A stretch of 64,000 nt of DNA from contig NZ_BBJX01000001.1 in NCBI RefSeq assembly GCF_000739995.1, positions 124,001-188,000 on the forward strand, read 5' to 3'. Under the pieces are notes generated by a model. It was not told the DNA's origin and ran no database searches. It saw only the letters and a list, made by a program, of their open reading frames with translations. The position numbers and the translations under genes are program-made. This DNA comes from Comamonas granuli NBRC 101663. Its GTDB lineage: Bacteria; Pseudomonadota; Gammaproteobacteria; Burkholderiales; Burkholderiaceae_C. Below, piece by piece: positions 3,012 to 28,563 of the stretch. Positions within the stretch are counted from its first letter, which is position 1. Each line of letters begins with the position of its first letter.

Positions 3012-3018
3012 GGGCGCC

Positions 3019-3565: not shown

Positions 3566-3625
3566 GGAGGATTGCTACAACTTCTTGCAATGAAATCAAG
3601 GACTTAGGCACGACAGGGCCGGCCT

Positions 3626-3754
3626 GCAAACGGCAAAAACCGTTGTGCAGGAAGCAGTTAGGTGCGTCAATGAAAGTAACACCTGAGGGGGTGCGCACCC
3701 CCAGGACCGCCCGCCCGCCAGGGCGGCGCGGGCCTGGCGGTGCGGGGGGCGGGC
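3626..3754 (-). terminator. Hairpin-rich hslU-mraZ spacer, terminator candidates
   Basis: Between the hslU stop and the mraZ promoter there are three dyads: a stem with CTGCA and CCGTT arms around 3628-3655, a perfect 16-bp GC-rich palindrome at 3687-3702 (GGGGGTGCGCACCCCC), and a GC-rich stem-like stretch around 3712-3738. None is followed by a strong T tract on the minus strand, so these are possible weak or Rho-assisted ends for hslVU. I see no credible gene here. Confidence 0.35.
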
Positions 3755-5077
3755 TCAGAGGATGAAGCGCGAGAGGTCTTCGTCCTGCGCGAGCGCCTGC
3801 AGGCGCTCGTCCACGTAGGCAGCGTCTATGGCCACGGTCTGGCCGCTGCGGTGGGCCGCATCGAAGCTGATGTCGTCGAGCAGGCGTTCCATCACGGTGG
3901 CGAGGCGGCGTGCGCCGATGTTCTCCGTGCGTTCGTTGACCTCGTAGGCGATGCGCGCCAGGCGCGTGATGCCTTCGGGGGTGAATTGCAGCGTGACGCC
4001 TTCGGTTTCCAGCAGCGCCTGGTACTGCTTGACCAGGCTGGCGTGGGTCTGCGTGAGAATGGCCTCGAAGTCCTGCACCGAGAGCGAGCCCAGCTCCACG
4101 CGGATGGGAAAACGCCCCTGCAGCTCGGGAATCAGGTCGCTGGGCTTGGCAAGGTGGAAGGCGCCCGAGGCGATGAACAGGATGTGGTCGGTCTTGACCA
4201 TGCCGTACTTGGTGTTCACCGTGGTGCCCTCGACCAGCGGCAGCAGGTCGCGCTGCACGCCCTGGCGCGAGACGTCGGCGCCGCCCGTTTCCTGGCGCGC
4301 GGCGACCTTGTCGATCTCGTCGATGAAGACGATGCCGTTCTGCTCGGCGCTGTGCACGGCGCGCTGCTTGATTTCTTCCTCGTTCACCAGCTTGGCGGCC
4401 TCCTCTTCGATGAGCAGGCGGCGCGCCTCGGCGATGGCGAGTTTGCGCGTCTTGCGCTTGCCCTGGCCGATCTGGCTGAACATGCCGCGCAGCTGCTCGG
4501 CCATGTCCTCCATGCCCGCGGGGCCCATGATCTCCAGTTGCGGGCGGGCGTCGGCCACGTCGATTTCTATTTCCTTGTCGTCGAGCTGGCCCTCGCGCAG
4601 CTTCTTGCGGAACACCTGGCGTGCCGTGCTGTCGGGCGCGGGCTCGCTGCCCGGGGTGCGCGCGGTGGGGATGAGCACGTCGAGGATGCGCTCCTCGGCC
4701 GCGTCCTCGGCGCGCGTGCGCACCAGGCGCATCTGCGCCTCGCGCTCCTGCTTGACGGCCACTTCCAGCAGGTCGCGGATGATGGCGTCCACGTCCTTGC
4801 CCACATAGCCCACCTCGGTGAACTTGGTGGCCTCGACCTTGATGAAGGGCGCGTCGGCCAGGCGCGCCAGGCGGCGCGCGATCTCGGTCTTGCCCACGCC
4901 CGTGGGGCCGATCATGAGGATGTTCTTGGGCGTGATCTCGCGGCGCAGGGGCTCGCTCACCTGCTGGCGGCGCCAGCGGTTGCGCAGGGCGATGGCCACG
5001 GCACGCTTGGCTCCGGCCTGGCCGACGATGTGGCGGTCGAGTTCGGAGACGATTTCCTGGGGGGTCATGGAGGACAT
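3755..5077 (-). CDS. hslU: ATP-dependent protease ATPase subunit HslU
   Basis: 440-residue AAA+ unfoldase that feeds substrates into the HslV peptidase in the cytoplasm. Visible are the N-terminal [12 protein letters not shown], Walker [16 protein letters not shown], Walker [13 protein letters not shown], and the C-terminal tail ending LSRFIL that docks into HslV. An inserted I domain lies between the Walker motifs. I chose ATG 5077 (MSSMTPQE), six bases inside a TTG start. The gap to hslV is filled by a short repeat copy. hslV precedes it, as in other proteobacteria. Confidence 0.95.
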
Positions 5078-5082
5078 ATTCA

Positions 5083-5141
5083 AAGCAGAATCAGGCTCCA
5101 GCCCTTATGTAGTAAGCGCTGGCAGCTATCAAAAACAAAGT
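5083..5141 (-). repeat. Short intergenic repeat (SIR) copy 1
   Basis: On the minus strand this reads TGATAGCTGCCAGCGCTTA, then a spacer, then GGGCTGGAGCC: the core of the roughly 60-bp repeat found about ten times in this window. It fills almost the whole hslV-hslU spacer and ends just before the hslU ATG, so it is transcribed between the two genes. Confidence 0.75.
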
Positions 5142-5152
5142 AGCCGAAACGC

Positions 5153-5716
5153 TCAGAGCGTCTCGACCGTGTGGTGCATGTTGGTGTAGATGCACAGCTC
5201 GCCGGCAATCGCCAGCGACTTGCGCACGATGTCCTCGGCACCCAGGTCGGTGTTGGCCAGCAGCGCCTGGGCGGCCGCCTGCGCGTAGGCGCCGCCGGAA
5301 CCGATGGCGACGATGCCCTGCTCGGGTTCCAGCACGTCGCCGTTGCCCGTGATGATGAGCGAGGCGCTGGCGTCGGCCACGGCGAGCATGGCCTCCAGGC
5401 GGCGCAGCACGCGGTCGGTGCGCCAGTCCTTGGTGAGCTCGATGGCGGCGCGCGTGAGGTGGCCCTGGTGCTTTTCCAGCTTGGCCTCGAAGCGCTCGAA
5501 CAGCGTGAAGGCGTCGGCCGTGGCGCCGGCAAAGCCGGCCAGCACCTTGCCATGGTGGAGCTTGCGCACCTTGCGCGCCGTGCCCTTGACGACGATGTGG
5601 CCCAGTGTGACCTGGCCGTCGCCGCCCAGGGCGACCTGCACGCCTGCCGCGGTCTGGCGACGCACGCTGAGGATGGTGGTGCCGTGGAACACCGGGGATT
5701 CGTTGGATGCGGTCAT
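5153..5716 (-). CDS. hslV: ATP-dependent protease peptidase subunit HslV
   Basis: 187-residue proteasome-like threonine peptidase, partner of HslU. The mature N terminus TTILSVRR starts at residue 13, after a 12-residue leader ending FHG. Thr13 would be the nucleophile after processing, as in other betaproteobacterial HslV proteins that carry a short propeptide. Conserved segments include [23 protein letters not shown] and the family C-terminal region around [11 protein letters not shown]. The ATG at 5716 was chosen because upstream extensions are low-complexity. No clear ribosome-binding site precedes it. Confidence 0.95.
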
Positions 5717-5725
5717 AGGGCGTCT

Positions 5726-5753
5726 AGGTGGGGGCGCCAACCGCCATTGCAAG
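5726..5753 (-). promoter_or_regulatory. Candidate sigma-32-type promoter before hslV
   Basis: The minus strand carries CTTGCAA (5753-5747), 12 bases, then CCCCCACCT (5734-5726). This resembles the heat-shock consensus CTTGAAA-N11-16-CCCCATnT, and hslVU is a classic heat-shock operon. The difficulty is that it ends only about ten bases before the hslV ATG, which would make the message nearly leaderless. Confidence 0.3.
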
Positions 5754-5802
5754 TGCGTTCGCCATGGCGCATCGAGCGACCCAGCACGCAGGAAACTGTC
5801 AC

Positions 5803-5851
5803 GGCCCAGGCCAGGGCTCCCGCGCAAGGCCCGCAGGGCCTCAGGGGGGGA
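5803..5851 (+). repeat. Internally deleted copy of the long repeat
   Basis: The left end (GGCCAGGGCTCCCGCGCAAGG) and the right end (CCCGCAGGGCCTCAGGGGGG) of the long repeat are present, but the middle with the CCCCCTGCCC hairpin is missing. Compare the full copy at 49755-49872, which has the same right end. It lies directly after the gene at 5857-7599. Confidence 0.6.
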
Positions 5852-5856
5852 GCATG

Positions 5857-7599
5857 CTAGTTCTTGCGCGGCAGCACCCAGGCGTGTTCGTTCACGCCCA
5901 GCACGTTGAAGAGCACGGCCACGAGCCGGTGCAGGTTGTGGAACTGCACCTCGCGGCCCTGGGCCTGCTGGTGCGCGGCCCAGTTGAGCACCGAACCGGC
6001 CGCCGTGAAGTCGATGCGGATGAGCTTGTCGCAGGCAATGGCCAGCGGCTGGCCCGCAGGCACCTGGTCCTGCACGCCCTCGAGCAGGTGCGCGGCATCG
6101 CCCTCGATGTGGCCGGACAGGCCGGCCATGGCGGGCACGGAGTCGCCAAAGCCGGTGAGCGTGCTGTGGGTGATGCTGTCCTTCCAGGGCGGCCGGGCCA
6201 CGAGGTCCTGCACAGGCGCGGGAGCGCTGGGCGGCGGTTCGCCTGCAGCATCGCTGCTGTAGCCGCAGCGCGGCGTCGCCCAGGAGGGCGGGGAGACCTC
6301 GTAGGTGACGCAGTAGTCCAGGGCCACCATCTCGAACTCGTCGGGCTGGCCCATGAGGCGCAGCAGCGCCATGCGCAGGCGCCACCACTCGGGGTTGCTC
6401 TCGCGCACGCCGGACTGGGTGTGCTCCTGCAAGAGCGCCTGCAGGGCCTGCGCGCCGGCAAACACGAACTGGCCGGGCAGGTCGGCCCAGCGGGAAAACT
6501 CGTTCGCCAGCGCGGTGAGGGCGGCGTCCTCGATGGACTTCAGGCGCGTCCAGGTCAGCGTCCAGGGGGAGGCCGAGCGGTTGATGGACGCCTGCAGCGC
6601 TGCCACCGACTGCAGGGTGACGGCCGCCGGGGCGTTCCAGCTGAATTCGCGCCGGGGCACGGCCGGCTCTTCCTGCACGGTCGCCTGCAGGCCCAGTTGC
6701 TCGGGCAGGGAGAACCACAGCGGCGCCGAGCGCGAGAAGCGGGCGGCGAAGTCGATGGCCAGGGCGTCGAAGCGGTCCTGCTGGCCCGTGGCGCGGTACA
6801 GGTCGAACAGCGTCATCCAGATCTCGAACTGCGCATCGGGGTCGTCCGCGCTGTGGCGTTCGAGCACCTCCAGCAGCCCGGCTTCGGCGCCCGCGTAATC
6901 GCCGTTGGCAAAGCGGATGGCAGCTTCTTCGAGGTCGGGTTCGTGCACGAATCTCTCCATGGCTGGTGCGGCCTGCGCCACGGGGGCCGCGCCCAGGCTC
7001 CAGGGCGCGCCGCCCGGCTCCTCGGGGGGCAGCATGCCCGGCCCGTCCGGGGCACTGAGGCTTTCGCCGGAAAACAGCGGCTCGGGCGCGCCCTGCGTGC
7101 CCGGCAGCGCCGCCCCCAGAGGCAGGGGCGCCGTGGGCGCGTAGGCGTCGGGAGCGGCAGGGGCCGTCTGGACCTGCGTGGGGACATCGGGAGGCGGCAG
7201 GGTTTCGGCTGCGTCAGCGCCCTGCTTGCCCTTCCACCACTGCATGGACATCTGCGCCTCGATCTCGTCGATCTTCTTGATCGTGACGGCGCGTTCGCCG
7301 GGCGAGGTGAGGCTGCTCTGGAAGAACGAGGGCCGTGCGGCGGGGTCGGCGGTGCGCTGGCCGCTCAGGGCGTCGCGCTGGCGCAGCTTGCGCAACTGAT
7401 CGAACTCGCGACGGCGCACGAAGTCGTTGCGCCGCTTGCGCTCGATCATTTCCTTGAGCATCTGCTTGCTGTACTGGCTCTCCTTGTCCTCCTGGATGGA
7501 GTCGAGTTCGGACCAGTTGACCGTGGGGTTGCGCACGAACCGCACCACCTTGGAGAGGAGGCCTCCGCCGGAGGAGGGGGTATCGTCGTCCTTGCTCAT
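5857..7599 (-). CDS. TPR-like / STAS-like domain protein, function unknown
   Basis: 580 residues, no signal peptide, so cytoplasmic. Parts in order: a charged, probably coiled-coil segment at about residues 35-75 ([20 protein letters not shown]); a Pro/Ala-rich linker to about 210; a TPR-like stretch around 215-285 ([35 protein letters not shown]), reminiscent of the FimV C-terminal repeats; a long middle region; and a C-terminal STAS-like domain, about 490-575 ([14 protein letters not shown]). It lies 38 bases after dksA on the same strand, so the two may be cotranscribed. No enzyme motif is seen; a scaffold or regulatory role is a guess. Confidence 0.75.
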
Positions 7600-8494: not shown

Positions 8495-9586
8495 TCAGGC
8501 CGCCAGGCACTGGTCCAGGCCCTGCTGGAAGATGTCCTGCGGCAGGTCGATGCCGATGAACACCATGCGGCTCTGGCGCGGCTCGCCCTCGGCCCACTGC
8601 GGCCCCAGGTCGCTGCCCATGAGCTGGTGCACGCCCTGGAAGATCACCTTGCGGTCGGTGCCCTGCATGTGCAGCACGCCCTTGTAGCGCAGCATGCGCG
8701 GGCCGTAGATGTTGACGATGGCGCCCAGGAAGTCCTCCAGCCTGGCCGGGTCGAAGGCGCGCTCGGCGCGGTAGACGAAGCTCTTGACGTCGTCGTCATG
8801 GTGGTGGTGGCGGCCGTGCTGGTGCGAGGGGTGGTCGCAGTGCGCGCCGTGCTCATGGCCATGGTGGTGGTGTCCGTGGTCGTGCTCGCCATGCCCGTGG
8901 TCATGGTCGCAGTGGCTATGGTCGTCCTCGTCCTGGAGGAAGTCGGGGTCGATGTCCAGCTTGGCGTTGAGATTGAAGCCGCGCAGGTCCAGCACCTCGG
9001 AGAGCGGCACCTCGCCGAAGTGCACGGCCTTGATGGGCGCGCGCGGGTTCATGTGCTTGAGGCGATGGGTGAGCGCGTCCACGTCGTCTGCGCTGACCAG
9101 ATCGGTCTTGGAGAGGAAGATCTGGTCCGCAAAGCCCACCTGGCGGCGCGCCTCCTGGCGGTCGTCGAGTTGCTGCTGGGCGTGCTTGGCGTCCACCAGG
9201 GTGAGGATGGAGTCCACCAGGTAGGTCTCGGCGATCTCGTCGTCCATGAAGAAGGTCTGCACCACGGGGCCGGGGTCGGCCAGGCCCGTGGTCTCGATGA
9301 CCACGCGCTCGAAATCGAGCAGGCCCTTGCGGCGCTTGGCGGCCAGCAGTTGCAGCGTCTCGCGCAGGTCCTCGCGGATGGTGCAGCAGATGCAGCCGTT
9401 GCTCATCTGCACGATCTGCTCCTGGCTGTCGGTGACGAGGATGTCGTTGTCGATGTTCTCCTCGCCGAATTCGTTTTCGATCACGGCGATCTTCTGGCCA
9501 TGGGCCTCGGAGAGCACGCGCTTGAGCAAGGTGGTCTTGCCCGCGCCCAGGAAGCCGGTGAGGATGGTGGTGGGAATCAGAGACAT
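8495..9586 (-). CDS. COG0523 (CobW/YjiA-type) GTPase with His-rich loop
   Basis: 363-residue G3E GTPase. Walker A is GFLGAGKTTLL; the metal-binding CxCC motif is NGCICCTIRED; the switch segment is IETTGLADPGP. Between about residues 218 and 262 there is a His/Asp/Glu-rich stretch (for example HCDHDHGHGEHDHGHHHHGH), a likely metal reservoir, before the C-terminal CobW_C domain. Family members are metallochaperones or metal insertases, often for zinc. The metal cannot be read here and I found no convincing Zur site upstream. The neighbouring DksA lacks zinc ligands, which may or may not be related. Confidence 0.9.
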   Translation of the reverse strand: MSLIPTTILTGFLGAGKTTLLKRVLSEAHGQKIAVIENEFGEENIDNDILVTDSQEQIVQMSNGCICCTIREDLRETLQLLAAKRRKGLLDFERVVIETTGLADPGPVVQTFFMDDEIAETYLVDSILTLVDAKHAQQQLDDRQEARRQVGFADQIFLSKTDLVSADDVDALTHRLKHMNPRAPIKAVHFGEVPLSEVLDLRGFNLNAKLDIDPDFLQDEDDHSHCDHDHGHGEHDHGHHHHGHEHGAHCDHPSHQHGRHHHHDDDVKSFVYRAERAFDPARLEDFLGAIVNIYGPRMLRYKGVLHMQGTDRKVIFQGVHQLMGSDLGPQWAEGEPRQSRMVFIGIDLPQDIFQQGLDQCLAA

Positions 9587-11898: not shown

Positions 11899-12129
11899 TC
11901 AGGTGCGCCAGTAATTGTTCGCCGCAGCCACGGTCTGGAAGTTCAGGGCGATGACCTGCGAGGCGGCGGTGAGCGCCTGGTGGTCGTTGGCGTACTCGGG
12001 GCGCAGCTTGTGCAGCACCTCGGAGTCCGGCTGGGTGTACTTGACGCCGCGCCGGCTCAGCGTGATGGCGAGCTCAAAGCCCTCCTGGGGCGTTGCCGTG
12101 ATGAGGGTGGGAAGCCAGGTATCGGCCAT
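11899..12129 (-). CDS. Small conserved-looking hypothetical protein, 76 aa
   Basis: Begins MADTWLPTLITATPQEG and ends AAANNYWRT. A good ribosome-binding site (AAGGAG six bases before the ATG at 12129) fixes the start. There is no signal peptide, no membrane helix and no Cys. The composition is ordinary and soluble, predicted mostly helical. I do not recognise the family. It lies 122 bases after the DUF2149 gene on the same strand, so it could be read through from the CobN-like operon, but nothing else links it to that operon. Confidence 0.6.
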   Translation of the reverse strand: MADTWLPTLITATPQEGFELAITLSRRGVKYTQPDSEVLHKLRPEYANDHQALTAASQVIALNFQTVAAANNYWRT

Positions 12130-12251: not shown

Positions 12252-12611
12252 CTAGGGCCGCGCAGCAGCGCCGCCGTCCGGAGCCTCGGGCACGTAGACC
12301 ATGCTGCCATCCTTCATGCGGTAGGCCACCCCGGCCTTCATGCCCTGGCCTTCGCCAATCTGGCCCGAGGACTGGTACTGCTTGAGCTCGTTGCCCTCCT
12401 TGACCAGCATTTCCATGTTGGGCTTGCCCGCGTTCTTGATGACCACCACGTCCTGCGAGGCGAAGGGGTTGAGCGGGTTCTCGGCCACGGCGATGAGCAG
12501 CACGGCAATCACCACCAGGAACACGTCGATGATGTTGACCACGCTGAGGATGGGATCGTCCTCGTCGGAGTCGCCCAGGATGTCGATGCGCATGCGGCGG
12601 GATTCAGCCAT
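12252..12611 (-). CDS. DUF2149 protein, ExbD/TolR-like single-pass partner
   Basis: 119 residues. After an acidic N terminus (DSDEDDPILSV) comes one membrane helix, NIIDVFLVVIAVLLIAV, with an Asp at about residue 29. This copies the ExbD layout (VVPLVDVMLVLL in the ExbD encoded at 18141-18515), where that Asp lies in the proton path. The remainder would be periplasmic and ends in an Ala/Pro tail. I chose ATG 12611, which overlaps the preceding channel gene by eight bases; ATG 12593 is the alternative. In Bacteroidota hmu operons a DUF2149 gene (hmuV) follows an ExbB-like gene and a CobN-like gene, the same order as here. Confidence 0.82.
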   Translation of the reverse strand: MAESRRMRIDILGDSDEDDPILSVVNIIDVFLVVIAVLLIAVAENPLNPFASQDVVVIKNAGKPNMEMLVKEGNELKQYQSSGQIGEGQGMKAGVAYRMKDGSMVYVPEAPDGGAAARP

Positions 12612-13167
12612 GGGCCAGCTCCCGGGTGGCGCGCGAGGGCACCGCATCGTGTGCATGGCCGTGCGCAGGCGTTGGCACGGCCACGGGCGCAGCGTCCAGG
12701 CCGATGAGCAGCACATTGAGCTCCTCCATGAGCCAGCGCTTGCGCAGCGTCTGCACCACAAAGGTAATGGCGGCCGCCAGCAGCGCCACGATCACGGCGG
12801 CAAAGGCCACCACCAGGTTCTGCGCCATGCCCTGCGTGTTGCCTGCAGCCACGGCCACCAGGGCCGGGCCCATGGGGATCATGGTGGCCACCAGCCCCAG
12901 CAGCGGCGCCACGCGGCTGACGATGCGCTGGAGTTCGAGCTGCTTGAGCACGTACAGTTCCAGCCCGTCGCTGCCCAGGTGGGCATGGCGCTGCCAGTAG
13001 CGGTGCAGGGGCTGCAGGCCCAGCGGCTGGCGCGCACGCACCAGGGCCTCGACCAGGACCTGGCCCAGGCTGAACAGCGCATAGACAAACATCAGGCACA
13101 ACAGCACCAGCACCGGGGTGAGAAAGAACTTGGAGATCTCGTAAAGGAAGCTTTCAAGGGCGTTCAT
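12604..13167 (-). CDS. MotA/TolQ/ExbB-type proton channel protein
   Basis: 187 residues with three membrane segments (about residues 13-36, 86-108 and 120-142). The family core is visible in VSRVAPLLGLVATMIPMGPAL and the following AFAAVIVALLAAAITFVV. The C-terminal tail is His-rich (HGHAHD). The start overlaps the stop of the CobN-like gene (ATGA). It differs clearly from the ExbB encoded at 18512-18937 in the same operon, so the operon carries two proton-channel proteins. Position next to the CobN-like and DUF2149 genes suggests a dedicated motor, as proposed for HmuU. Confidence 0.85.
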   Translation of the reverse strand: MNALESFLYEISKFFLTPVLVLLCLMFVYALFSLGQVLVEALVRARQPLGLQPLHRYWQRHAHLGSDGLELYVLKQLELQRIVSRVAPLLGLVATMIPMGPALVAVAAGNTQGMAQNLVVAFAAVIVALLAAAITFVVQTLRKRWLMEELNVLLIGLDAAPVAVPTPAHGHAHDAVPSRATRELAHG

Positions 13168-16100
13168 GCGGAGGCTTTCAAAGAAAGGGACGAAGGAATG
13201 CGGTTGCGGCGCACGCGCCAGGCCTGCCAGGCCATGCCCGCCAACACGACGGCGCCCAGCAGCCAGGCGTAGGCCCAGATGAGCTGCTGCACGGGGGTGT
13301 CGCGCAGCACTTCGCGCAGCTCCTGGCCGCGCACCACCGGGGGCGGCGCGGGCGGCTCTGGTTCCGGTGCGGGCGGTTGCTGCTGCAGTGCTGTCTGGGG
13401 CGGCGCAGCAGCGGCGCTGGGCGCGGCCTGGGCAGGCGCGGGCTGCGGGCCAATGCCAAAGCCTTGCGCCAGCTCGGCCACGTAGGCCTTGAAGGTTTCG
13501 TTGCTGGTGTGCACATCGTGGCGCGCGGCCAGGTCCTGGTAGGTGGCCACCAGCTCACGCTTCGTACGCTCATCGGCCTGCCAGTAGTCCTTGCGGATGG
13601 CTTCGAGCATGCGCTCGGCCACCTGCGCCAGGGCCGTGGGGTTGTTCTTCTCAAACCACGCGCGCGTGCCCAGCTTGTGGCGGTCATTCACATAGGCCTC
13701 ATGGAACTCCTGCCACTGGTCGTCGCGCACCACGTTGCGGTCCATCACCTGCCAGCCCCAGAAGTTGTTGACGGTGTTGAGCATCTGCAGCGTGCCGCTG
13801 TAGCCCTCCTGCATCATCTCCTTCATCCAGTTCGGGTGCTGGTAGACGCTGCGCAGCTCGGTGGCCATGAACTTCTCGGCCGTCTGCAGGCGCGCGCGGT
13901 TCGGGTCGCGCATGTTGGAGATGTAGAGCTGCGGGTTCTTGCCATCCAGGTGTTTGACGGCCAGCGAGATGCCGCCGAGGTATTCAAACGGGTGGTCGGT
14001 ATCGAGCAGGCCGCGCAGGTTGGACGAGCGCGAGAACACGGCCGCACTGGTGCCGCGCAGGTGCTCGGCGTAGGTGTTGATCTCGCGCCCCGTGGGGTCG
14101 GCCAGCTTGCGGCTCCAGTGCGCGGTGTTGGGGCCATAGGCCCAGGACATGCGCGAGAGGTAGAGCTTTTCAAGCTTGCCGTCGCCCTCTTCCCACATGT
14201 CGGAGGCGAGCGAGGCGTCGGTCAGCTTGGTGCTGTAGTCGCCGCTTTCGTTGCCGAAGATGCGTGTCAGGGCAAACTCGCGCGCCTCCTGCGCGGGCAC
14301 GCCCTGCGCCCGCAGCGCGGCCTCGATGCGCTCGGTATTGGCGCGCACGAAATTCTTCTCACGCGGCTCGGGCTGCGCGGCGAGCAACTGGATGGCCTCG
14401 TTGAAGCGCTCCATCACGTTGGGGAACTGGTCGCGGTACAGGCCGGTGAGCGAGATCACCGTGTCGATGCGCGGGCGCCCCAGCTCCTGCAGGGGAATCA
14501 CCTCCATGCCCACCACGCGCCCGCCCTCGTCCCAGCGCGGTTTCACGCCCATGGCGTAGAGGATCTGCGCCTCCAGCATGCCCAGGTGGCGCAGGGTTTC
14601 GGTGCTCCACATGCTGAAAGCCAGCTTCTCGGGGAATTTGCCATGCTCGGCCTGGTAGGACTGGATCAGCGTCTGCACCGCCTCCTTGCCCGCCTCGTAG
14701 GCGGCGCGCGTGGGGATGCGCGCAGGGTCGAAGCCGTACATGTTGCGCCCGGTGTGCAGCGCGTCCGGGTTGCGGATCGGGTCGCCGCTGTAGGACGGGT
14801 CGATCCAGCGCGCCGACAGGCCCTGCAGCACGCCCTCCACCTCCCAGGCAGCGCGCAGCATAACCAGGAAGCGCCGCCCCTTCTCGGCCAGCACGCGCAG
14901 TTGCGGATCGTCGAGCTCACGCAGCGGGCGTTCGCTGAAGACCCAGTCGTCCACAAAGCGGTAGGGCGCGGTCTGGGGCAAATCCTTGTAGTCGCCCTTG
15001 AACGCGGCCTTGGCGCTCTTCACGCCCGTGGCCTCGTAGAGCGGCTGGCCCAGCATCTGCATCACGTTGCTGACGAGGTGAGCGCGCTCGGCGTCCAGGC
15101 CCAGAGTGTGCAGGCCCAGCGGCTGCTGGGCCGCACCCAGGTCTTCGAGGTAGTCCTCCAGGTCACGCAGGAACTTGTCGAAATCACGCTCCAGCTCGGC
15201 CACCTTCCACTTCAGGTCCTTGTGGATGTTCATCTTCACCGCCTGCGCCACGATGAGCTTGCGGTTGTTGTCCTTGACCAGGCCAGAATCGAGCGACTGG
15301 TATTCGCGGATCAGGTCGTTGATGCGCACGAAGTCTTCCGACAGGCCCGCGGGAGCGAACGCCGGGGTCTGGTGGCTCACGATCACGCCGCGCCCGCGCC
15401 GCTTGACGTGCAGCGCCTCGCCGATGTTGTCCACGATGTACGGGTACACCACCGGCGTGTTGCCCACCAGCAGGTTGGGCTCGTCGTAGGCCCACAGGCC
15501 GCGCTCCTTGCCGGGCGTCCACTCCTGCGTGCCGTGCGTGCCGAAGTGCACGATGGCGTGCGCGGCATGCTGCTCGCGCGCCCACAGGTAGGTGGCCAGG
15601 TAGAAGTGGTTGAGCGGCACCTTGGTGTCGTGGAACAGCTTTTTCTCGTCGTGGTGGCTCGCCGCCGTTTCGCTGCGCATGGGCTGGGGCAGCACCACGA
15701 GCTGGCCCAGTTTCATGCGCGGGATGACAAAGCCCTGCTGCCCCTGGTGGCGCACCACCCAGGGGCTCTTGGTGGGCTCGCCCCAGAAGGTGGTGATGCG
15801 CTGGCGCACCTCGGCGGGCAGGCCCTGAAGCCAGCGCTCGTAGCGCGCCAGGGGTAGAAAGTCCCAGTGCGGCGTCTTCATGAGTTCGCCCAGCGTGCCG
15901 GGTCGGTACGACGGGCGCAGCAGGGTAGCCACGGTGGCGATGATGTCCTGCTCGGTGGTGGCGTCTATGCGGTAGCCTTCGGCGCGCAGGCGCTGCACCA
16001 GGTGCTCCAGCGAGCGCGGCACATTGAGGTTGGAGGCCCCCTGGTTCTTCTCGCCCGGCGGGTGGTTCCAGAAGAACAGCGCCAGGCGCTTGTCGGCATT

Positions 16101-17402
16101 GGGCGTGGACTGCAGGCGCGCCAGGTTCACGGCCTTGCCCACGAGCAGGTCCATCTGCTCGGGCATGGGCACCAGCTCGCCGCCCTCGTTGGCGCTGACG
16201 ACCACCGGGTCCTGCAGGCCGATGTATTCGGCATTGGTCAGCGCAAACGGCAGGTTGAAACTGCTCACGCCCACGGTGTCGCGCAGGTAGTCGGCGCGCG
16301 TGCCCTGGCGGTAGGACAGCATGTTGATGACCGGCACGCCCATGGCGCGGTGCCAGGCCTTGCGCGCATCGGGGTTGATGCCCAGGAAGGTGTTGACCAG
16401 CAGCACCTGGGGCAGCACCTTGCCGTCCAACGTGATGATGGGTTCGTCCACCTCCACCGGCGCCAGCTCCTGGGGGTTGGGAAAGCCCGGCCCCGCGTAC
16501 ACCCCGGCAGCAATGTCGGCCGTCTGCACCGGTCGCCCGCCAGGGGCAGCCATGGCGCCTGCGGGCGCACCACCCCGGCCCGACGGCGCTCCCCCTGCCC
16601 CGGCCGGAGGTCCACCCCCCCCCGGCCGGGTCGCTGCCGTTGCAGCTTGCGCATCGGCGGCCGCACGGGCCACACGGCTGCTGCGGTAGAACACCAGCGG
16701 CAGCGCACCGCGTGCTTCCAGCGCGGCAATGGTTTCGTCGAGCACACGGGTCTGCCCGTCGGACAGGTAACTGGACGACATCTCCATGCCCACCACCGGC
16801 GCGCCCTGGGCCGCACTGCCCTGGCGCGCCTGCCACCAGGCCAGGTAGCTGCGCAGGTCGGCAAACACGCCCTTGTCGTAGGCCGGGTGGTAGATGCCGC
16901 CATTGGGCAGTGCCACCGGCGCGGGCACGGTGGCGGGGTCGGTGCCCTGCAGCACGGCACGCAGGTACTGGAACAGGCGCTCGTGGTTCACGCGCATGCC
17001 GCCCACGTAGTAGTCGAACACGCGCTGGGCCTGCGCCGACGACAGGCCCATGGGGCGCAGGCGCACGGGCGGGCTCATCACATGGATGCCCACGCCCGGC
17101 AGCCGGGCGGCGCGGATTTGCGCCCCGGCCACACGCTCGATCAGCGCCTGGTCGTCGGAGCGCGGCGCATCCACCAGCACCAGGCGTGCGCCATCGAGCA
17201 CACGCGCCACGCCTTTTTCACCCTCGGCATCGACCTGCGTCCAGGCCAGCTCCACGCCCTGGGCGCGCGCGGCCTCCTGCATGAGCTTGAACTTGCGCTC
17301 CAGCACCATGGTGCTGCTGATCAGGGCCACCTTGTCCGCCGCTGCGGCGGGAGCCACCAGCGCGCAGCACAGGGCTGCCACCATCCATATCCAGCGTGCC
17401 AT
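13164..17402 (-). CDS. Exported, membrane-anchored CobN-like chelatase/dechelatase (HmuS-like)
   Basis: 1412 residues, homologous to CobN, the large subunit of cobalt chelatase, and to the BchH/ChlH group. Signature segments include HFGTHGTQEWTPGK (near residue 620), RGVIVSHQTPAFAPAGL and GRNMYGFDPARIPT (near 880). Unlike cytoplasmic CobN it starts with a signal peptide (about residues 1-22, ending APAAAA) and ends with a Pro-rich linker (about 1310-1350), one membrane helix (about 1371-1391) and an Arg-rich tail (WRVRRNR). The catalytic body should therefore be periplasmic. A Gly/Pro/Ala-rich insert lies at about 255-290. The ATG at 17402 is two bases from the tonB stop. No CobS/CobT or ChlI/ChlD ATPase gene is in the window. 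Bacteroidota HmuS, a CobN relative reported to remove iron from haem, is the best functional analogue. Metal insertion is the alternative; direction and substrate are unknown. Confidence 0.85.
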   Translation of the reverse strand: MARWIWMVAALCCALVAPAAAADKVALISSTMVLERKFKLMQEAARAQGVELAWTQVDAEGEKGVARVLDGARLVLVDAPRSDDQALIERVAGAQIRAARLPGVGIHVMSPPVRLRPMGLSSAQAQRVFDYYVGGMRVNHERLFQYLRAVLQGTDPATVPAPVALPNGGIYHPAYDKGVFADLRSYLAWWQARQGSAAQGAPVVGMEMSSSYLSDGQTRVLDETIAALEARGALPLVFYRSSRVARAAADAQAATAATRPGGGGPPAGAGGAPSGRGGAPAGAMAAPGGRPVQTADIAAGVYAGPGFPNPQELAPVEVDEPIITLDGKVLPQVLLVNTFLGINPDARKAWHRAMGVPVINMLSYRQGTRADYLRDTVGVSSFNLPFALTNAEYIGLQDPVVVSANEGGELVPMPEQMDLLVGKAVNLARLQSTPNADKRLALFFWNHPPGEKNQGASNLNVPRSLEHLVQRLRAEGYRIDATTEQDIIATVATLLRPSYRPGTLGELMKTPHWDFLPLARYERWLQGLPAEVRQRITTFWGEPTKSPWVVRHQGQQGFVIPRMKLGQLVVLPQPMRSETAASHHDEKKLFHDTKVPLNHFYLATYLWAREQHAAHAIVHFGTHGTQEWTPGKERGLWAYDEPNLLVGNTPVVYPYIVDNIGEALHVKRRGRGVIVSHQTPAFAPAGLSEDFVRINDLIREYQSLDSGLVKDNNRKLIVAQAVKMNIHKDLKWKVAELERDFDKFLRDLEDYLEDLGAAQQPLGLHTLGLDAERAHLVSNVMQMLGQPLYEATGVKSAKAAFKGDYKDLPQTAPYRFVDDWVFSERPLRELDDPQLRVLAEKGRRFLVMLRAAWEVEGVLQGLSARWIDPSYSGDPIRNPDALHTGRNMYGFDPARIPTRAAYEAGKEAVQTLIQSYQAEHGKFPEKLAFSMWSTETLRHLGMLEAQILYAMGVKPRWDEGGRVVGMEVIPLQELGRPRIDTVISLTGLYRDQFPNVMERFNEAIQLLAAQPEPREKNFVRANTERIEAALRAQGVPAQEAREFALTRIFGNESGDYSTKLTDASLASDMWEEGDGKLEKLYLSRMSWAYGPNTAHWSRKLADPTGREINTYAEHLRGTSAAVFSRSSNLRGLLDTDHPFEYLGGISLAVKHLDGKNPQLYISNMRDPNRARLQTAEKFMATELRSVYQHPNWMKEMMQEGYSGTLQMLNTVNNFWGWQVMDRNVVRDDQWQEFHEAYVNDRHKLGTRAWFEKNNPTALAQVAERMLEAIRKDYWQADERTKRELVATYQDLAARHDVHTSNETFKAYVAELAQGFGIGPQPAPAQAAPSAAAAPPQTALQQQPPAPEPEPPAPPPVVRGQELREVLRDTPVQQLIWAYAWLLGAVVLAGMAWQAWRVRRNRIPSSLSLKASA

Positions 17403-17403
17403 T

Positions 17404-18144
17404 TCAGGATTCCGTGAGTTCATAAACAATGGGGATGCGCAGATCAGCCGCGCGGCCCGGCGCCATCTGTGCAGCCAGTGCCTGGGCCACGCTGCGCACC
17501 AGTTGCTCGGCAGCGTGGTCGAGCGCCTTGAAGCCCGAGGAGTGGTGCAGCGTGCAGTGCTGCAGGCTGCCGTCGGCACCTACGCGCAGGTGCACCACCA
17601 CGGTGCCGCTCTGGCCCATGCGGCGCGCGCTGGCCGGGTAGCGCTTGCCCTGCTGCAAGGCCTGCTCCAGCCGGGCGCGCCACTGCTGGTAGCTCTGGTC
17701 GTCCTGCGGTGCAGGGGGTGCGGCGGCGCTCGGGGGCGCTGGCGGGGCCACCGCCGCCACTGCGCGCGGCGCTTCGGCGGCCGCGGCAGCGGCGACCGGC
17801 GTGGCCACGGTGGACTCGGAGCGCAGGGGCTCGGCCTGGGGCTGCGGCGCCTGCACCGGCACCTGGGGAACCGGGGTGGGACGGGGCGCAGCCACGGCGC
17901 GCGGGCGCGGGGCCGGTGCGGGCTGCGGCGCGGGGGGCGCGGGCGCCACCTGCGGGGGCTGCGGCGCGGGCGCTGGGGGCGCAGCCCAGCGCACGGCCAC
18001 CTCCAGGCGCTCCACGGCAGGCGCCTGTTCCAGGCCCCACCACAGCGCCAAGCCCAGCAGGCCTGCGTGCAAAAGAAGCGATGGCCCCCAGTCGCGCGCA
18101 GCCATGCGCGCAGGGGCGCTCATCGTGAGGGTGGGCGCGCTCAT
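17404..18144 (-). CDS. tonB: TonB-family energy transducer
   Basis: 246 residues. One N-terminal membrane helix (about 22-40, SLLLHAGLLGLALWW), a long Pro/Ala-rich periplasm-spanning region (about 50-150) and a C-terminal TonB domain with GKRYPASARRMGQSGTV and VVVHLRVGADGSL. It couples the ExbB/ExbD motor to the outer-membrane receptor. The ATG at 18144 overlaps the exbD stop (ATGA), and the stop is directly before the CobN-like start, so receptor energisation and the CobN-like enzyme are made together. Confidence 0.9.
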   Translation of the reverse strand: MSAPTLTMSAPARMAARDWGPSLLLHAGLLGLALWWGLEQAPAVERLEVAVRWAAPPAPAPQPPQVAPAPPAPQPAPAPRPRAVAAPRPTPVPQVPVQAPQPQAEPLRSESTVATPVAAAAAAEAPRAVAAVAPPAPPSAAAPPAPQDDQSYQQWRARLEQALQQGKRYPASARRMGQSGTVVVHLRVGADGSLQHCTLHHSSGFKALDHAAEQLVRSVAQALAAQMAPGRAADLRIPIVYELTES

Positions 18145-18515
18145 GTGCGACGCACCTCCAGCGCCACCTTCTCGAAGCCCAGCGCCTTCACGCGGTCCAC
18201 CAGGTCCACAAAGTCGGTCAGCGCCAGGGCGCCGTCGGCGCGCACGGTGACGGGCTGGGCGCGCTCGAAGCGGGCCAGGGCGGGCGCCAGATCGTCCACA
18301 CGCACGTCGTTGAGGTACAGCACCTTGTGGCTGGTGAGCGTGAGCACCACGGGCGCAGGCTGGGTGGGTGCCGCCTGCGCGGCCTGCGCCAGATCCACAG
18401 GGATGCGCCCGGTGACCACGAAGGTGGCCGTGGTGAGCACGATGGTGAGCAGCACCAGCATCACATCGACCAGCGGCACGACGTTGATGGAGTCGATGTC
18501 CTCGTCCATGCTCAA
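18141..18515 (-). CDS. exbD: ExbD biopolymer transport protein
   Basis: 124 residues: a short acidic N terminus (MDEDIDSINVVP), one membrane helix with the essential Asp (PLVDVMLVLLTIVL, about residue 17) and a periplasmic domain of about 80 residues (LTLTSHKVLYLNDVRVDDL). Forms the proton-driven motor with ExbB. The start overlaps the exbB stop by four bases. A start at the second Met (two residues in) is equally possible. Confidence 0.92.
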   Translation of the reverse strand: MSMDEDIDSINVVPLVDVMLVLLTIVLTTATFVVTGRIPVDLAQAAQAAPTQPAPVVLTLTSHKVLYLNDVRVDDLAPALARFERAQPVTVRADGALALTDFVDLVDRVKALGFEKVALEVRRT

Positions 18516-18937
18516 CCTCCCTGGGCTTCGTCAAACTCGGCCAGCTTGACGCGCACCACGCGGCGCAGCGCGTTGTTCAGCCCCACACAGGGAATGGCCA
18601 CGCCAATGCCCACGGCCGTGGCCTTGAGCGCCAGGGCCAGGCCAACCATGATGGTTTTCACATCCATGGCGCCGCTGTGGCCCAGGGCCTCGAAGGTCAG
18701 CATGATGCCCAGCACCGTGCCCAGCAGGCCGATGTAGGGCGCGTTGGCCGCCACCGAGCCGATCACGCCCAGGCGCTGGGTGAGTTCGGTCTCCAGCCGC
18801 ACGCGGCTGCGGTAGCTTTGCACCTGCACCTGGCGGTAGAAGCGCCAGCGTTCCAGCGCCACGGCCACGGCCCAGGCGCTCAGGGACAGGAGCAGGCCGA
18901 TCACGCCCCACTCCACGACGGATTTGAAGTCCTGCAT
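18512..18937 (-). CDS. exbB: ExbB/TolQ-family proton channel protein
   Basis: 141 residues, a short ExbB with three membrane segments (about 10-28, 62-84 and 100-122). Core motifs: GSVAANAPYIGLLGTVLGIM and ALKATAVGIGVAIPCVGLNN, both highly typical of ExbB/TolQ. First gene after the receptor (15-base gap) and overlapped by exbD, so the receptor, ExbB, ExbD and TonB form one expression unit. Confidence 0.93.
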   Translation of the reverse strand: MQDFKSVVEWGVIGLLLSLSAWAVAVALERWRFYRQVQVQSYRSRVRLETELTQRLGVIGSVAANAPYIGLLGTVLGIMLTFEALGHSGAMDVKTIMVGLALALKATAVGIGVAIPCVGLNNALRRVVRVKLAEFDEAQGG

Positions 18938-18952
18938 GGCGTGCTCCGGTGC

Positions 18953-21232
18953 TCAGAACTGCAGGCTCAGGCCCAGGCGCCAGGTGCGGCCGGGGTCCAC
19001 CACGATGGAGGGGTCCTGGCTGTTGTAGCGGCCGTCCATGTTGGAGTCGCCTGCGCCGCGCGCCGTGAGGTAGTAGCGCTTGTCGAACAGGTTTTCCACG
19101 CGCACGTAGGCGCTCAGGCGCGCGCCGGGCCAGGCCGGGAGCTTGGTGCTGTACTGCGCCGTGAGGTGCAGCAGGGTGCGGCCGGGGAGCTTTTCCTGGT
19201 TGACCTCATCGGCCCAGGCGGCGGCCTTGGCGTCGATCTCGCCGCTGAGCGTCCAGCCCGGTGCGGGCAGGTAGTTGGCGCGCAGGTTGAACTGGTGCGG
19301 CGGGGTGCGCGGGATCTTCTTGCCCGTGTTGTCGTAGCGCTGCACCGTGAAGTTGCTTTGCCAGAAACCGGGGTTGGCACGCTGCGCCGCCGTGGGGCTG
19401 GCGACATAGGTGCCGTTGGCGTTGCCATAGGTCTGGTAGTAGCTGTCATAGCGCGTGAACCAGGAATCCAGGTAGGTGTAGGCGGCATCGAACGACCACT
19501 GGCGGTGCGGCTGGGTGCGCAGCTCCAGCTCCAGGCCGCGGCTGCGCGCGCCGCCGATGTTGCGGAACTGCGAGCCCCCGCCCGCCGGGTTGTTGCTGCC
19601 CGCGTACTGGCCATTGCTGTCCAGGATGAAGTCCTTGCGGTCCACCTGGAACAGCGCCGCGTTCAGGCTGGACGGCCAGCCCGCCAGTTGCAGCTGGCGC
19701 TTGAGGCCGATCTCGAAGCTGGTGGCCTTTTCCGGCTGGAGGTCGGGGTTGCCCTGCACCAGGGTGTTGGTGGTGGTCTGCCCGCGGTAGAGCTGCTCGG
19801 CCGTGGGCGCGCGGAAGCCCGTGGACACGGCGGCGTGCAGTGTGGTGTCCTTGTCCAGCGCATGGGTCAGCCCCAGGCGGTAGCTGTTCACGTCGAAGTC
19901 CTTGCGCTCGGCCACCGTGCGGTTGCCGTTGCCCGCCACCGGCAGGGCGTTGAAGCGCACGCCCAGGCGGTCGTGGCGCAGGTTGAAGGTGGCCGCCGTC
20001 TTGTCGCTCAGGCCGAGCTTGGCCTCGCCGTACAGCGCCTGGTTGGTTTCCACGGTGTCGTCGTCGCTCATCACCATGCCCGCCGGGGTGACCGGGCCGG
20101 TGGGGCGCGCACGGTAGCTGTTGAGCGTGGAGACGCGGTTGTCGAAGCTGTTGCGCTTGACCTCCAGCCCGCCCATCAGCGCCAGGCGGTCGCGGTGGGT
20201 GCGGTACTCGGTCTTGAAGCCGCGCTGCACCTGCGTGTAGTCGTTGAGCAGGCTGTAGTGGTCGATGCCCGTGGTGGGCGCACCCGTGGCCGTGAAGCGC
20301 ATGGGGTTGGCCCAGAAGGTGGTGTCGTCCTGGTACTGGTACACCACGGCCAGCAGGTTGCTGCGTTCGTCCAGGTCGTTGGAGTAGGTCAGGTTGATGC
20401 GCGCGAGGTCCACGTCGAAATTGCGGCTGTAACCGCGCCCGCCGTTGATGCCCTGGGGGTCGGTCAGGGCGTTGTCCACCCCGGTGACGCTGCCCTCGCG
20501 GTCACGAAAGCGCTGGGACTTCTCGAACCCCAGGCTCAGGTCGCTGCCGGCCGTGAGCGCGTACTTCAGGTTGCCCGACAAGGTCTTGCTGTAGGTGCGC
20601 GAGAGGAAGTAGTAGCCATCCTGGTCGCGGTCGCTGTACTGGATGTGGCCCGAGAGCTCATCGAGCGCAAAGCCCGCGCGCACCATGGCGCGGCGGTAGC
20701 CGAAAGCGCCCGCATCCGCCTCGGCCTTGGCGCCGCGCTGGCTGGCGCCGCGCTTGGTGGTGATGACCACCGCCCCGGCCAGCGCATCCTCGCCATAGAG
20801 GTAGGAGGCGCCGCCCTTGATGACCTTGATGGACTCGATGTTGTCGATGTCGATGTTGACCTTGCCCGTGCGCTCGTACACGGGCACACCGTCGATGATG
20901 ATGGCCACGCCGGGCTTCTCGCCCATGTAGCGCTGGTTCTCCACGCCGCGCAGCTTGATCTTGACGGTTTCGCCGTCGCCCTGCAGGTCGGCCGTGATGC
21001 CGCTGACGGCGCGCAGCACTTCGATCAGGTTCTTGGCGTGCTGCTCCTCGATCTGCTGGCGGCCGATGGTGACGGACGACACCGGATCGGTGGCGCTGGA
21101 CAGGAAGCGGTCGTCAATGGCCGAGCCGGTGATGGTGATGGGGGCCAGCGCATCGCTGGTCTGTGCCCAGCCCGGGGCAGCAACGCCACAGGCCAGCAGA
21201 CAGGCCAGGGCAACGGTGGAGTGACGCAACAT
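18953..21232 (-). CDS. TonB-dependent outer-membrane receptor
   Basis: 759 residues. Signal peptide of about 23 (ALACLLACGVAAPGWA), plug domain (VAIIIDGVPVYERTGKVNID, IESIKVIKGGASYLYGEDAL), then a 22-strand-type barrel ending in Phe (LRLGLSLQF-like terminus GLSLQF). Barrel segments GFRAPTAEQLY and GNPDLQPEKATSFE are the FRAP and NPxL boxes found in haem receptors, but no His lies between them, where haem receptors usually have one. AGAGGA spacing (AGAGGAAACACG before ATG 21232) supports the start. The cargo is unknown; the downstream CobN-like gene points to a tetrapyrrole or metal complex. Confidence 0.92.
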   Translation of the reverse strand: MLRHSTVALACLLACGVAAPGWAQTSDALAPITITGSAIDDRFLSSATDPVSSVTIGRQQIEEQHAKNLIEVLRAVSGITADLQGDGETVKIKLRGVENQRYMGEKPGVAIIIDGVPVYERTGKVNIDIDNIESIKVIKGGASYLYGEDALAGAVVITTKRGASQRGAKAEADAGAFGYRRAMVRAGFALDELSGHIQYSDRDQDGYYFLSRTYSKTLSGNLKYALTAGSDLSLGFEKSQRFRDREGSVTGVDNALTDPQGINGGRGYSRNFDVDLARINLTYSNDLDERSNLLAVVYQYQDDTTFWANPMRFTATGAPTTGIDHYSLLNDYTQVQRGFKTEYRTHRDRLALMGGLEVKRNSFDNRVSTLNSYRARPTGPVTPAGMVMSDDDTVETNQALYGEAKLGLSDKTAATFNLRHDRLGVRFNALPVAGNGNRTVAERKDFDVNSYRLGLTHALDKDTTLHAAVSTGFRAPTAEQLYRGQTTTNTLVQGNPDLQPEKATSFEIGLKRQLQLAGWPSSLNAALFQVDRKDFILDSNGQYAGSNNPAGGGSQFRNIGGARSRGLELELRTQPHRQWSFDAAYTYLDSWFTRYDSYYQTYGNANGTYVASPTAAQRANPGFWQSNFTVQRYDNTGKKIPRTPPHQFNLRANYLPAPGWTLSGEIDAKAAAWADEVNQEKLPGRTLLHLTAQYSTKLPAWPGARLSAYVRVENLFDKRYYLTARGAGDSNMDGRYNSQDPSIVVDPGRTWRLGLSLQF

Positions 21233-21407
21233 CGTGTTTCCTCTTGGGTGATTTCGAGACGGAGCGCTGCAACGCACGGCCGGGCCGTGGGCAGTGCAGG
21301 CAAACCGGCGCGCGCGCAGGGCGGCGCAAACCGGTCAACAGGCAGAAAAAAGCGAAGGGAGCGAACGGCGCGGGCCGCCTGACAGCGTCAGGCGCGCGCG
21401 GGCACGA

Positions 21408-21800
21408 TCAGCCGCGCAGGGCGGGCGGGGCGCGCGTGAGGGCGCCCAGCCAGACGGCGGGCCGGGGTCCGGCGCGGTAGAACGCAACCGGCATGTCCTG
21501 CGCGCAGCGCAGCAAGGGCAGCGCCGCTTGCGTGGCAGGCGGTGCGGCCACGGCGTGCATGCTGCACCAGGTACAGGGTTTCTTGAGATCGGCCAGGGTG
21601 CTGCTGCCCTCGTCGGGCAGCACATCGCCATCGGCCTGCACCCACAGCATGCCCGATGCGGTACAGACCATCACAGCGCCCTCGGGGGCTGCGCCCCCGG
21701 ACACCACGGCCTGCGCCAGGGTGGGCGCCAGTGCACCAAATGCCACAGCCAGCATGGCCAGCAAGGCAATGCAGCGGCGGTACAGGCGCAGGGTGAACAT
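21408..21800 (-). CDS. DUF2946-like small exported protein
   Basis: 130 residues: signal peptide at about 1-31 (IALLAMLAVAFGALAPTLAQA), a segment around Cys46 (VMVCTASGM), and a possible metal-binding CxxCxxH at 76-82 (CTWCSMH). This layout fits the DUF2946 family, whose genes often sit beside TonB-dependent receptors for metals or metal complexes. I chose ATG 21800 because the hydrophobic signal starts right after it. It lies 175 bases upstream of the receptor on the same strand and may be the first gene of the operon. Function unknown. Confidence 0.7.
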   Translation of the reverse strand: MFTLRLYRRCIALLAMLAVAFGALAPTLAQAVVSGGAAPEGAVMVCTASGMLWVQADGDVLPDEGSSTLADLKKPCTWCSMHAVAAPPATQAALPLLRCAQDMPVAFYRAGPRPAVWLGALTRAPPALRG

Positions 21801-28216: not shown

Positions 28217-28227
28217 AAAAAAAGTGT

Positions 28228-28563
28228 GAAGCGTGCCGATAAGCCGGATTCTGTGCACTGCGGTTGCCCGCAGCGTGACCGCCATTACTCTGGGCCGGGG
28301 GTCGCCCACCCGGCTCGGTGCTACCTACCCGCCAGCTCTGCGGAACCACATCAACGCTGGCCTACTTGGTATTGCTGCGCGTAGAGATTGCCCGTTTCAC
28401 CCCCAGTGGTCTACCTTGCGGCACTCCCCCGGGACTCGTCTCTGTTGCTCTGATCCTCACCTCACGGTGGGCAGCCGTTAGCTGCTACGCTGTCCTGTGC
28501 AGTCCGGACGTTCCTCCAGTGCCTGGTTTCCCAGATTGCACCAGCGGCGGTCTGGCATGCTTC
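28228..28563 (-). ncRNA. rnpB: RNase P RNA (M1 RNA)
   Basis: On the minus strand the RNA begins GAAGCATGCCAGACCGCC and ends ATCCGGCTTATCGGCACGC. Diagnostic segments are GGAGGAACGTCCGGACT near the 5' end, ACAGAGACGAGTCCC, the GGTGAAACGGGCAATCTC region and the 3' CACAGAATCCGGCTTAT, which together form the conserved P4 and loop elements of bacterial type A RNase P RNA. Length of about 336 fits. A run of seven T (28223-28217) follows the 3' end. It lies antisense between two plus-strand genes, divergent from the methyltransferase gene. Confidence 0.95.

Follow-up and report, generated by a model that had tools for sequence, protein, structure and literature searches.

An operon headed by a CruR-like reading frame with a putatively exported CobN-family protein in Comamonas granuli: a candidate copper-uptake system

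The cobaltochelatase CobNST and the Mg-chelatase ChlHID are cytosolic enzymes with AAA+/VWA partners. A described relative outside the cytoplasm is HmuS of Bacteroidota, in which the H538A change abolishes haem demetallation (PMC12583661); HmuS requires reduced haem, its electron donor being reported as unknown (PMC12583661; PMC13227078), and its authors, in a figure legend, have HmuU and HmuV energise the receptor (PMC12583661). A separate line of work concerns CruR of Bordetella pertussis, a DUF2946 protein encoded by an upstream open reading frame (ORF), whose CXXC motif senses copper during synthesis: without copper the ribosome stalls at an RAPP motif, and with copper Rho terminates transcription (PMC9426467). 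The marks given for CruR are about 45 residues between CXXC and a C-terminal RAPP, a place as first gene of the operon and a long intergenic region, which measures 162 nt between CruR and the BfrG receptor in B. pertussis (PMC9426467). Here, we describe an operon of Comamonas granuli NBRC 101663 that brings both themes together, at positions 12252 to 21800 of a 64,000-nt stretch of DNA (contig NZ_BBJX01000001.1, positions 124,001 to 188,000; hereafter, the window). We favour, with about as much doubt as confidence, the reading that the operon serves copper uptake under copper starvation, a periplasmic CobN-family protein freeing the copper from an imported chelate.

The operon comprises eight genes, each a single uninterrupted open frame on the minus strand. 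At its head lies the CruR-like DUF2946 ORF (21408..21800, 130 aa; PF11162 at 52 bits, cut-off 23.7), followed by an intergenic region of 175 nt (21233..21407) and a TonB-dependent receptor (18953..21232, 759 aa; Pfam Plug and barrel). Next are exbB of the exbB2 type (18512..18937, 141 aa), exbD (18141..18509, 122 aa) and tonB (17404..18144, 246 aa), identified by Pfam (ExbB, ExbD, TonB_C) and NCBIfam, and then the CobN-family gene (13164..17402, ATG at 17402; 1412 aa, Pfam CobN at 974 bits), whose product is predicted to be exported and membrane-anchored. The last two genes encode a proton-channel protein of the MotA/TolQ/ExbB family (12604..13167, 187 aa; PF01618 MotA_ExbB at 23.7 bits, cut-off 22.9), the counterpart of HmuU by gene place, and a Pfam DUF2149 protein (12252..12593, 113 aa), the counterpart of HmuV and PA1925. 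From DUF2946 to DUF2149 the gaps are 175, 15, 2, -4, 1, -4 and 10 nt. An earlier note, made from the sequence by a model, had described seven tightly packed genes with a DUF2946 gene 175 nt upstream, and ORF and Pfam analyses confirmed every gene, the strand and the gaps; the note overlooked the copper-sensing role described for CruR (PMC9426467). The complete gene order, which the note proposed to look for in other Comamonadaceae, also occurs in Acidovorax sp. 210-6 and in a Burkholderiales metagenome-assembled genome (MAG), and Giesbergeria has the same order up to cobN, where its contig stops. Because of this recurrence, the order is not a matter of chance.

The window DUF2946 ORF carries the marks of CruR: family membership, the motif pair at the expected spacing (CTWC as the CXXC, then 43 residues before an RAPP that lies four residues from the C-terminus) and a position 175 nt 5' of the receptor. 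From the 3' part of this ORF into the intergenic region C exceeds G; C minus G is 0.17-0.19 in most 78-nt segments from 21492 to 21432 and 0.12 in one, compared with operon 95th and 99th percentiles of 0.167 and 0.218. A scan for sigma-70 promoters found none. The one further DUF2946 gene of the genome has CXXC-RGPP and also stands immediately 5' of a receptor; among the genes 3' of that receptor, Pfam gave no copper family. We propose the window DUF2946 protein as a CruR-like copper sensor of the operon and, on sequence grounds, consider copper control of the operon to be well supported.

To place the operon among its relatives, we scanned a collection that yielded 466 CobN relatives and used the best 80 of these 466 (loci are given by L numbers). 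Fifty-four are of the window type: 49 have His and Glu at positions corresponding to 1137 and 1140 of the window protein (the H/E pair) and match that protein best, while in the other five the site is missing or the gene is in pieces and the best match is still the window protein. The remaining 26, here called sister loci, have a D/Q pair and match best a paralogue in the C. granuli genome (L004). Together with 37 further stretches from the window's genus and family, which are mostly D/Q types but include the HmuS-like L074 and two stretches with no CobN labelled (L075, L078), they make up 63 controls. The region upstream of the receptor was readable in 34 of the 54 window-type loci, 23 of the 26 sister loci and 30 of the 37 family controls, and at 12 of the 54 window-type loci the contig stops no more than 450 nt from where the first labelled gene lies. 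The window-type CobN is split into several frames in one Nitrosomonas europaea copy (L140) and a Burkholderiales MAG (L146); in the second N. europaea copy (L109) it occupies one frame.

A profile search placed a CruR-like ORF directly 5' of the receptor at 14 of the 54 window-type loci and at none of the 63 controls. These 14 loci span beta- and alphaproteobacteria, and the gap to the receptor is 8-197 nt in the 12 where it was measured (L113 and L125 being unmeasured). At L139 the ORF lies 1.4 kb 5' of the receptor, and at L136 and L177 it is further upstream, preceding an extra receptor gene. With L139 counted, the contrast is 15/54 against 0/63 (Fisher test, p = 3e-6), to be read with the profile's origin in mind, as 11 of these loci and the window went into building it and those matches are not independent of it. 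A plain motif search without the profile found 13/54 window-type, 2/26 sister and 3/37 family loci, and none of the five control matches sits before a receptor.

Genes of copper type also occur beside some window-type relatives. Among 117 neighbouring ORFs, which matched 139 Pfam families, DUF2946 (six) and PCu(A)C (five) were commonest, followed by PepSY_TM, DsbD_2, TonB_C, TetR_N and DUF4198 with three each; this batch is not a clean sample, as it joins 106 ORFs from a short list of 153 to 11 that were hand-picked, including four from L136 and L150 known beforehand as PCu(A)C. The locus of Hydrogenophaga taeniospiralis (L136) reads CruR-SCO1-PCuAC-CruR-regulator-receptor-receptor-ExbB-ExbD-TonB-CobN-MotA-DUF2149. 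Against the copper receptor family (cut-off 472) its second receptor reaches 115 bits, and haem families score higher. The upstream regions of L177 and L121 hold PepSY_TM plus PCu(A)C and PepSY_TM, respectively.

The CobN-family protein starts with a hydrophobic segment typical of a signal peptide (Kyte-Doolittle peak 2.7) and ends in a hydrophobic stretch (peak 2.1) followed by arginines. By the same plain Kyte-Doolittle window, 43 of 47 same-type sequences longer than 1200 aa pass the N-terminal and 45 of 47 the C-terminal threshold, compared with none of four cytosolic CobN sequences. Hydropathy thus predicts an exported, membrane-anchored protein. NCBIfam names it cobaltochelatase subunit CobN (equivalog), a name silent on an extracytoplasmic place, and no cob genes are among the Pfam matches of the operon. 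A genome search with PF01078 found no ChlI/ChlD partner nearby (the CobS and CobT models were not searched): its one strong match, a 571-aa frame that we take to be ComM by its size, lies on a different contig, and of three weak matches the sole one on the window contig is about 110 kb away.

The active-site residues resemble those of HmuS. An HFGTHG motif is present, in which H623 corresponds to the catalytic H538 of HmuS, and H1137 and E1140 in DHPFEYLGG correspond to HmuS H1209 and E1212; compared with the HmuS motif LSLDHxxEFMGG, the His and Glu are retained and the flanks differ (LLDT before, YL for FM). Other HmuS features are missing. The HGR haem-ligand motif (HmuS His-254), found in all three HmuS-clade sequences, is absent from the window protein, and the position of HmuS Met-79 is taken by the Pro of DAPR, in a part of the N-terminus where the alignment is weak. 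The Met-rich insertion of domain IV is also absent: the window protein has 66 residues with one Met between the flanking columns, compared with 233 residues and 30 Met in Prevotella HmuS, 317 and 10 in Aureibacter, and 320 and 3 in L074, whose HmuS-clade protein (2286-6806, minus strand) comes from a genome in the same family as the window. Since the H/E and D/Q groups had been picked by that very pair, we relied on a tree instead of on invariance within the groups. In a FastTree phylogeny of 69 sequences, the window protein falls in a clade of 28 (local support 100), all with H/E; 29 sister sequences have D/Q, the three HmuS sequences have H/E and lie outside the window clade, and the pair has changed at least three times. 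The four cytosolic CobN sequences lack H/E, with D/Q in three and D/A in one. As the NikR-linked Azospirillum protein has H/E too, the pair marks a catalytic type, not a metal. The paralogue locus L004 (contig C17, 5000-24900) holds receptors, an NMT1-like protein, an exported CobN, MotA, DUF2149, an ABC permease, an ATPase and NnrS; its CobN shares 48% identity with the window protein over about 1081 residues and has the D/Q pair, and a profile search found no CruR there.

The nearest solved structure, both by sequence and by fold, is HmuS, by fold narrowly ahead of CobN. An AlphaFold2 model of the CobN body (984 aa; predicted local distance difference test [pLDDT] 80, predicted template modelling score 0.59) gave HmuS as first match, followed by CobN and ChlH at nearly equal E-values. 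Over the full length the template modelling score is about 0.4 and the root mean square deviation about 25 A, and therefore only the domains are well placed. Altogether, the window protein probably shares its mode of action with HmuS without being an HmuS. The signal peptide and C-terminal helix, the lack of a chelatase ATPase nearby (by PF01078) and the HmuS parallel had all been put forward in the earlier note and are borne out here, as is its preference for metal handling over cobalamin synthesis.

The two proton-channel pairs differ in their distribution. MotA and DUF2149 lie near CobN at 45/54 window-type and 22/26 sister loci; among the nine exceptions of the window type, seven contigs end too soon, and L120 and L121 lack MotA/DUF2149 within 3 kb. 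ExbB with ExbD lies near CobN at 22/54 window-type and 2/26 sister loci. Both pairs occur together at 19/54 window-type loci, in three gene orders. Because these 19 relatives have both pairs, MotA/DUF2149 probably works on the chelatase rather than on TonB. A low-confidence AlphaFold2 model of the DUF2149 protein (pLDDT 64.5), of insufficient quality for fold searching, predicts one membrane helix (residues 14-38) and then a small beta domain. D23, inside the helix, is invariant in 34 aligned sequences, and hhalign aligns DUF2149 with ExbD over 20 columns only, the helix and Asp motif (pairwise E 6e-4, probability 28%). Two cytosolic CobNs with cob genes, in Halobaculum and Deinococcus, have ATPase or VWA genes and no annotated MotA/DUF2149 within 6 kb, in annotation tables that are incomplete. 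At four window-type loci, titled Methylobacter (L110, 16237-21275), Methylococcaceae (L111, 4650-9800), Gammaproteobacteria (L115, 11380-16342) and Methylomonas (L148, 996-5987), three of these titles being of methanotrophs, a further set of genes stands in line with CobN: DUF4198-like, polyferredoxin-like, HGD-D, BcrAD-type ATPase and DsbD_2, assigned by Pfam for one representative each and otherwise by BLAST clusters. A plausible role for these genes would be ATP-driven electron supply to the periplasm; the window operon does not contain them.

Other metal regulators were sought in the window and its relatives. In the window neither Fur nor Zur matches rose above shuffled sequences; the best Zur match reached 8/16 positions (shuffle mean 9.15), and the genome has one FUR-family gene. 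Fur control gave nothing clear in the window and the 34 readable window-type loci, and Zur control was likewise set aside at 1/34 loci against 0.75 expected. Fur-like boxes occur at 11/23 readable sister loci (0.4 expected from shuffles) and 5/30 family controls (0.25 expected), and the difference between window-type (5/34) and sister loci has a Fisher p of 0.015. Cobalamin control was also dropped, as riboswitches are absent from the window and from 13 loci of its type. They are present in three of seven other stretches scanned, at the receptor's head in L020 (16326-16564) and L076 (13859-14097) and about 5 kb beyond CobN in L022 (2723-2913), which has another past the opposite end of the same stretch; the other four stretches belong to the paralogue type. 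The CobNs of all three belong to a clade with MotA-DUF2149-CobN order, MotA/DUF2149 not being labelled in L020. A Runella plasmid (L193) carries a CobN-MotA-DUF2149 module within hyp (hydrogenase maturation) genes, an Azospirillum plasmid (L201) carries one adjoining NikR, and both are likely a nickel branch. What these CobN modules have in common is the acquisition of metals, and the regulator indicates which one.

For the window operon, these observations are consistent with the following mechanism. By analogy with B. pertussis, the ribosome would stall on the RAPP of the CruR-like ORF when copper is low, and the operon would be read; with copper present, the nascent CXXC would bind it, the stall would be relieved, and Rho would stop transcription before the receptor. 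The receptor, powered by its own ExbB-ExbD-TonB, would import a copper chelate into the periplasm, most likely a tetrapyrrole or a similar macrocycle. There the anchored CobN-family protein would hold the chelate in its cleft, of the class I chelatase kind, with H623 on one side and H1137/E1140 on the other. Protonation of the ligand would free the metal, Cu(II) probably having first been reduced to Cu(I). A second proton-driven unit, made up of the MotA/ExbB-like protein and DUF2149, would act on the chelatase, replacing the cytosolic AAA+ motor. Metal removal from, or insertion into, a tetrapyrrole, driven by the proton gradient instead of ATP, had already been suggested in the earlier note; the gradient is the likely energy source, and metal handling stands, while haem iron as the leading case fares less well than copper, to which CruR points.

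Several points weigh against the copper reading. Removing the metal from copper(II) porphyrins is difficult. The tie between the CobN-family protein and copper is drawn from sequence context, and its coupling to MotA-DUF2149 from linkage; the H/E pair is no mark of copper, being shared by the HmuS sequences and the NikR-linked Azospirillum homologue. At 40/54 window-type loci no CruR lies directly 5' of the receptor, although the contig end cuts 12 of the 54, and in the profile search none of the loci titled Nitrosomonas, Marinobacterium or methanotroph had one before the receptor. While ten of the 14 CruR-like ORFs retain CXXC, it is lacking in L154 and in three of the four from alphaproteobacteria (L155, L158, L169). 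A sister-type locus, L071, has a CruR-like ORF (2818-3780, minus strand; E 3e-7, with CXXC and RAPP) near the receptor, on the opposite strand and directed away from it. The Fur threshold is reached at 5/34 window-type loci against 1.25 expected, and the copper receptor family TIGR01778 is not among the 25 of 29 matches listed for the window receptor. CutF-like proteins are not uniformly copper sensors (PMC9973294), and the comparable P. aeruginosa operon is zinc-regulated (PMC4542158).

The operon might instead be a haem dechelatase system of the HmuS type, taking up haem and freeing its iron in the periplasm, that merely stands under copper control. HmuS is the best solved match, the core gene set is that of hmuRSUV and the three catalytic residues correspond. 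For the receptor, the haemin family gives 160 bits (cut-off 317) and a siderophore family 163 (cut-off 224), both below threshold; the receptor families were not decisive. However, the window protein lies outside the HmuS clade in a fully supported clade of its own and lacks the HGR motif, a Met at the Met-79 position and the Met-rich insertion; the window has no Fur box, and neither HmuY nor HmuT is among the operon's Pfam matches. CruR at the head of the operon also speaks against it, and we regard the haem alternative as unlikely. We consider uptake of zinc, cobalt or nickel, as by an operon like PA1922-PA1925 of P. aeruginosa, very unlikely: related modules do adjoin NikR, hyp genes or cobalamin riboswitches, but here the best Zur match falls under the shuffle mean, the genome has a single FUR-family gene, no riboswitch is present in the window and the regulator is CruR-like.

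Two further alternatives concern the second proton-channel pair and the CobN-family protein. MotA/DUF2149 could be a spare ExbB-ExbD pair for the receptor, without effect on CobN, as the assignment of HmuU/HmuV to the receptor implies (PMC12583661) and as MotA_ExbB family membership and the 20-column likeness of DUF2149 to ExbD would allow. Against this, 19/54 relatives own ExbB-ExbD besides, and MotA with DUF2149 stays near CobN in 45/54. Matches to CobN, DUF2149 and MotA_ExbB also occur in Methanosarcina acetivorans, an archaeon without an outer membrane, though not seen adjacent there. Altogether, we think a spare pair improbable. The CobN-family protein might also insert metal, as its relatives CobN and ChlH do, or just store or shuttle the chelate without catalysis, and we know of no measured activity for a CobN of this type. 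Its catalytic His is nevertheless shared with HmuS, where H538A abolishes activity (PMC12583661), and the operon is of uptake type; we give this alternative little credence.

A broader scheme suggests itself, which we put forward tentatively and with more doubt than confidence: a novel class of machine that strips metals, in which a class I chelatase outside the cytoplasm has lost its AAA+ motor, is driven by MotA/DUF2149 and is deployed metal by metal through swaps of receptor and regulator (CruR for copper, Fur for iron, Zur for zinc, a cobalamin riboswitch for cobalt, and NikR or hyp context for nickel). The metal in the window would then be copper, its CobN-family protein the first dechelatase for copper, and bacterial mining of copper macrocycles would be indicated for the first time. 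In the sampled genomes, exported CobN relatives are frequent and carry the annotation cobaltochelatase, and the haem branch is the only one for which we found a tested function. A full-text literature search returned no copper-linked CobN operon, judged by title and start of abstract, subscription papers being mostly outside its scope. Nitrosomonas and methanotrophs need much copper, and a copper branch, if true, would add a copper uptake route that includes organisms with such titles. It would also help explain MotA/DUF2149, and operons with both ExbB-ExbD-TonB and MotA/DUF2149 allow the two functions to be told apart by genetics and make the assignment of HmuU/HmuV to the receptor testable.

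Beyond DUF2149, 122 nt 3' of it, a gene for the hexameric tyrosine-coordinated haem protein HTHP (PF11534) lies at 11899-12129 on the minus strand; it is in the locus of no other genome compared, and we rejected it as an operon partner. A link to CobW (8495-9586) was also dropped, since dksA (and, by eye, hslU) lies beyond it and a tyrosine recombinase, presumably xerC, on the other side, as expected of a housekeeping neighbour. Elsewhere, the window encodes a class A RNase P RNA (28224-28563, minus strand).

Compared with known systems, the window protein shares a homologous large subunit and fold with CobNST and ChlHID; unlike the CobN of cobalamin synthesis, it is exported by hydropathy and has no cob genes in its operon. 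The paralogue system L004 shares the receptor, exported CobN, MotA and DUF2149 and differs by its D/Q pair and its ABC, NMT1-like and NnrS neighbours. The cruR-bfrG-bp2921 operon of B. pertussis shares the DUF2946 upstream ORF with CXXC and RAPP, the long intergenic region and the TonB receptor that follows, whereas its third gene encodes a PepSY_TM protein, and the main text of that report never uses the words CobN, chelatase, ExbB and DUF2149 (PMC9426467). PA1921-PA1925 of P. aeruginosa is an operon that, by published gene content, unites a receptor and a CobN-like protein with DUF2149 (PA1925) and a protein of the proton-channel family (PMC4542158, PMC8531726, PMC9431628, PMC11761036) and differs in being Zur-regulated and tied to zinc (PMC4542158). 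Its channel protein is termed ExbD in those papers; from gene order, PA1924 would be the MotA. With PA1922-PA1925 in print as a Zur-regulated set (PMC4542158, PMC9431628) and both proton-channel pairs recurring in 19/54 relatives, the earlier note's remark that such an operon is not well described is true only in part. HmuS of the Bacteroidota hmuYRSTUV system shares the catalytic His pair and Glu and the fold with the window protein, and the system as a whole shares an exported, anchored class I chelatase, a receptor, an ExbB-like protein and DUF2149 (PMC12583661, PMC13227078). The window operon differs in its clade and in lacking the HGR/Met haem site, the Met-rich insertion, HmuY and HmuT, and it adds its own ExbB-ExbD-TonB and a CruR-like ORF at its head.

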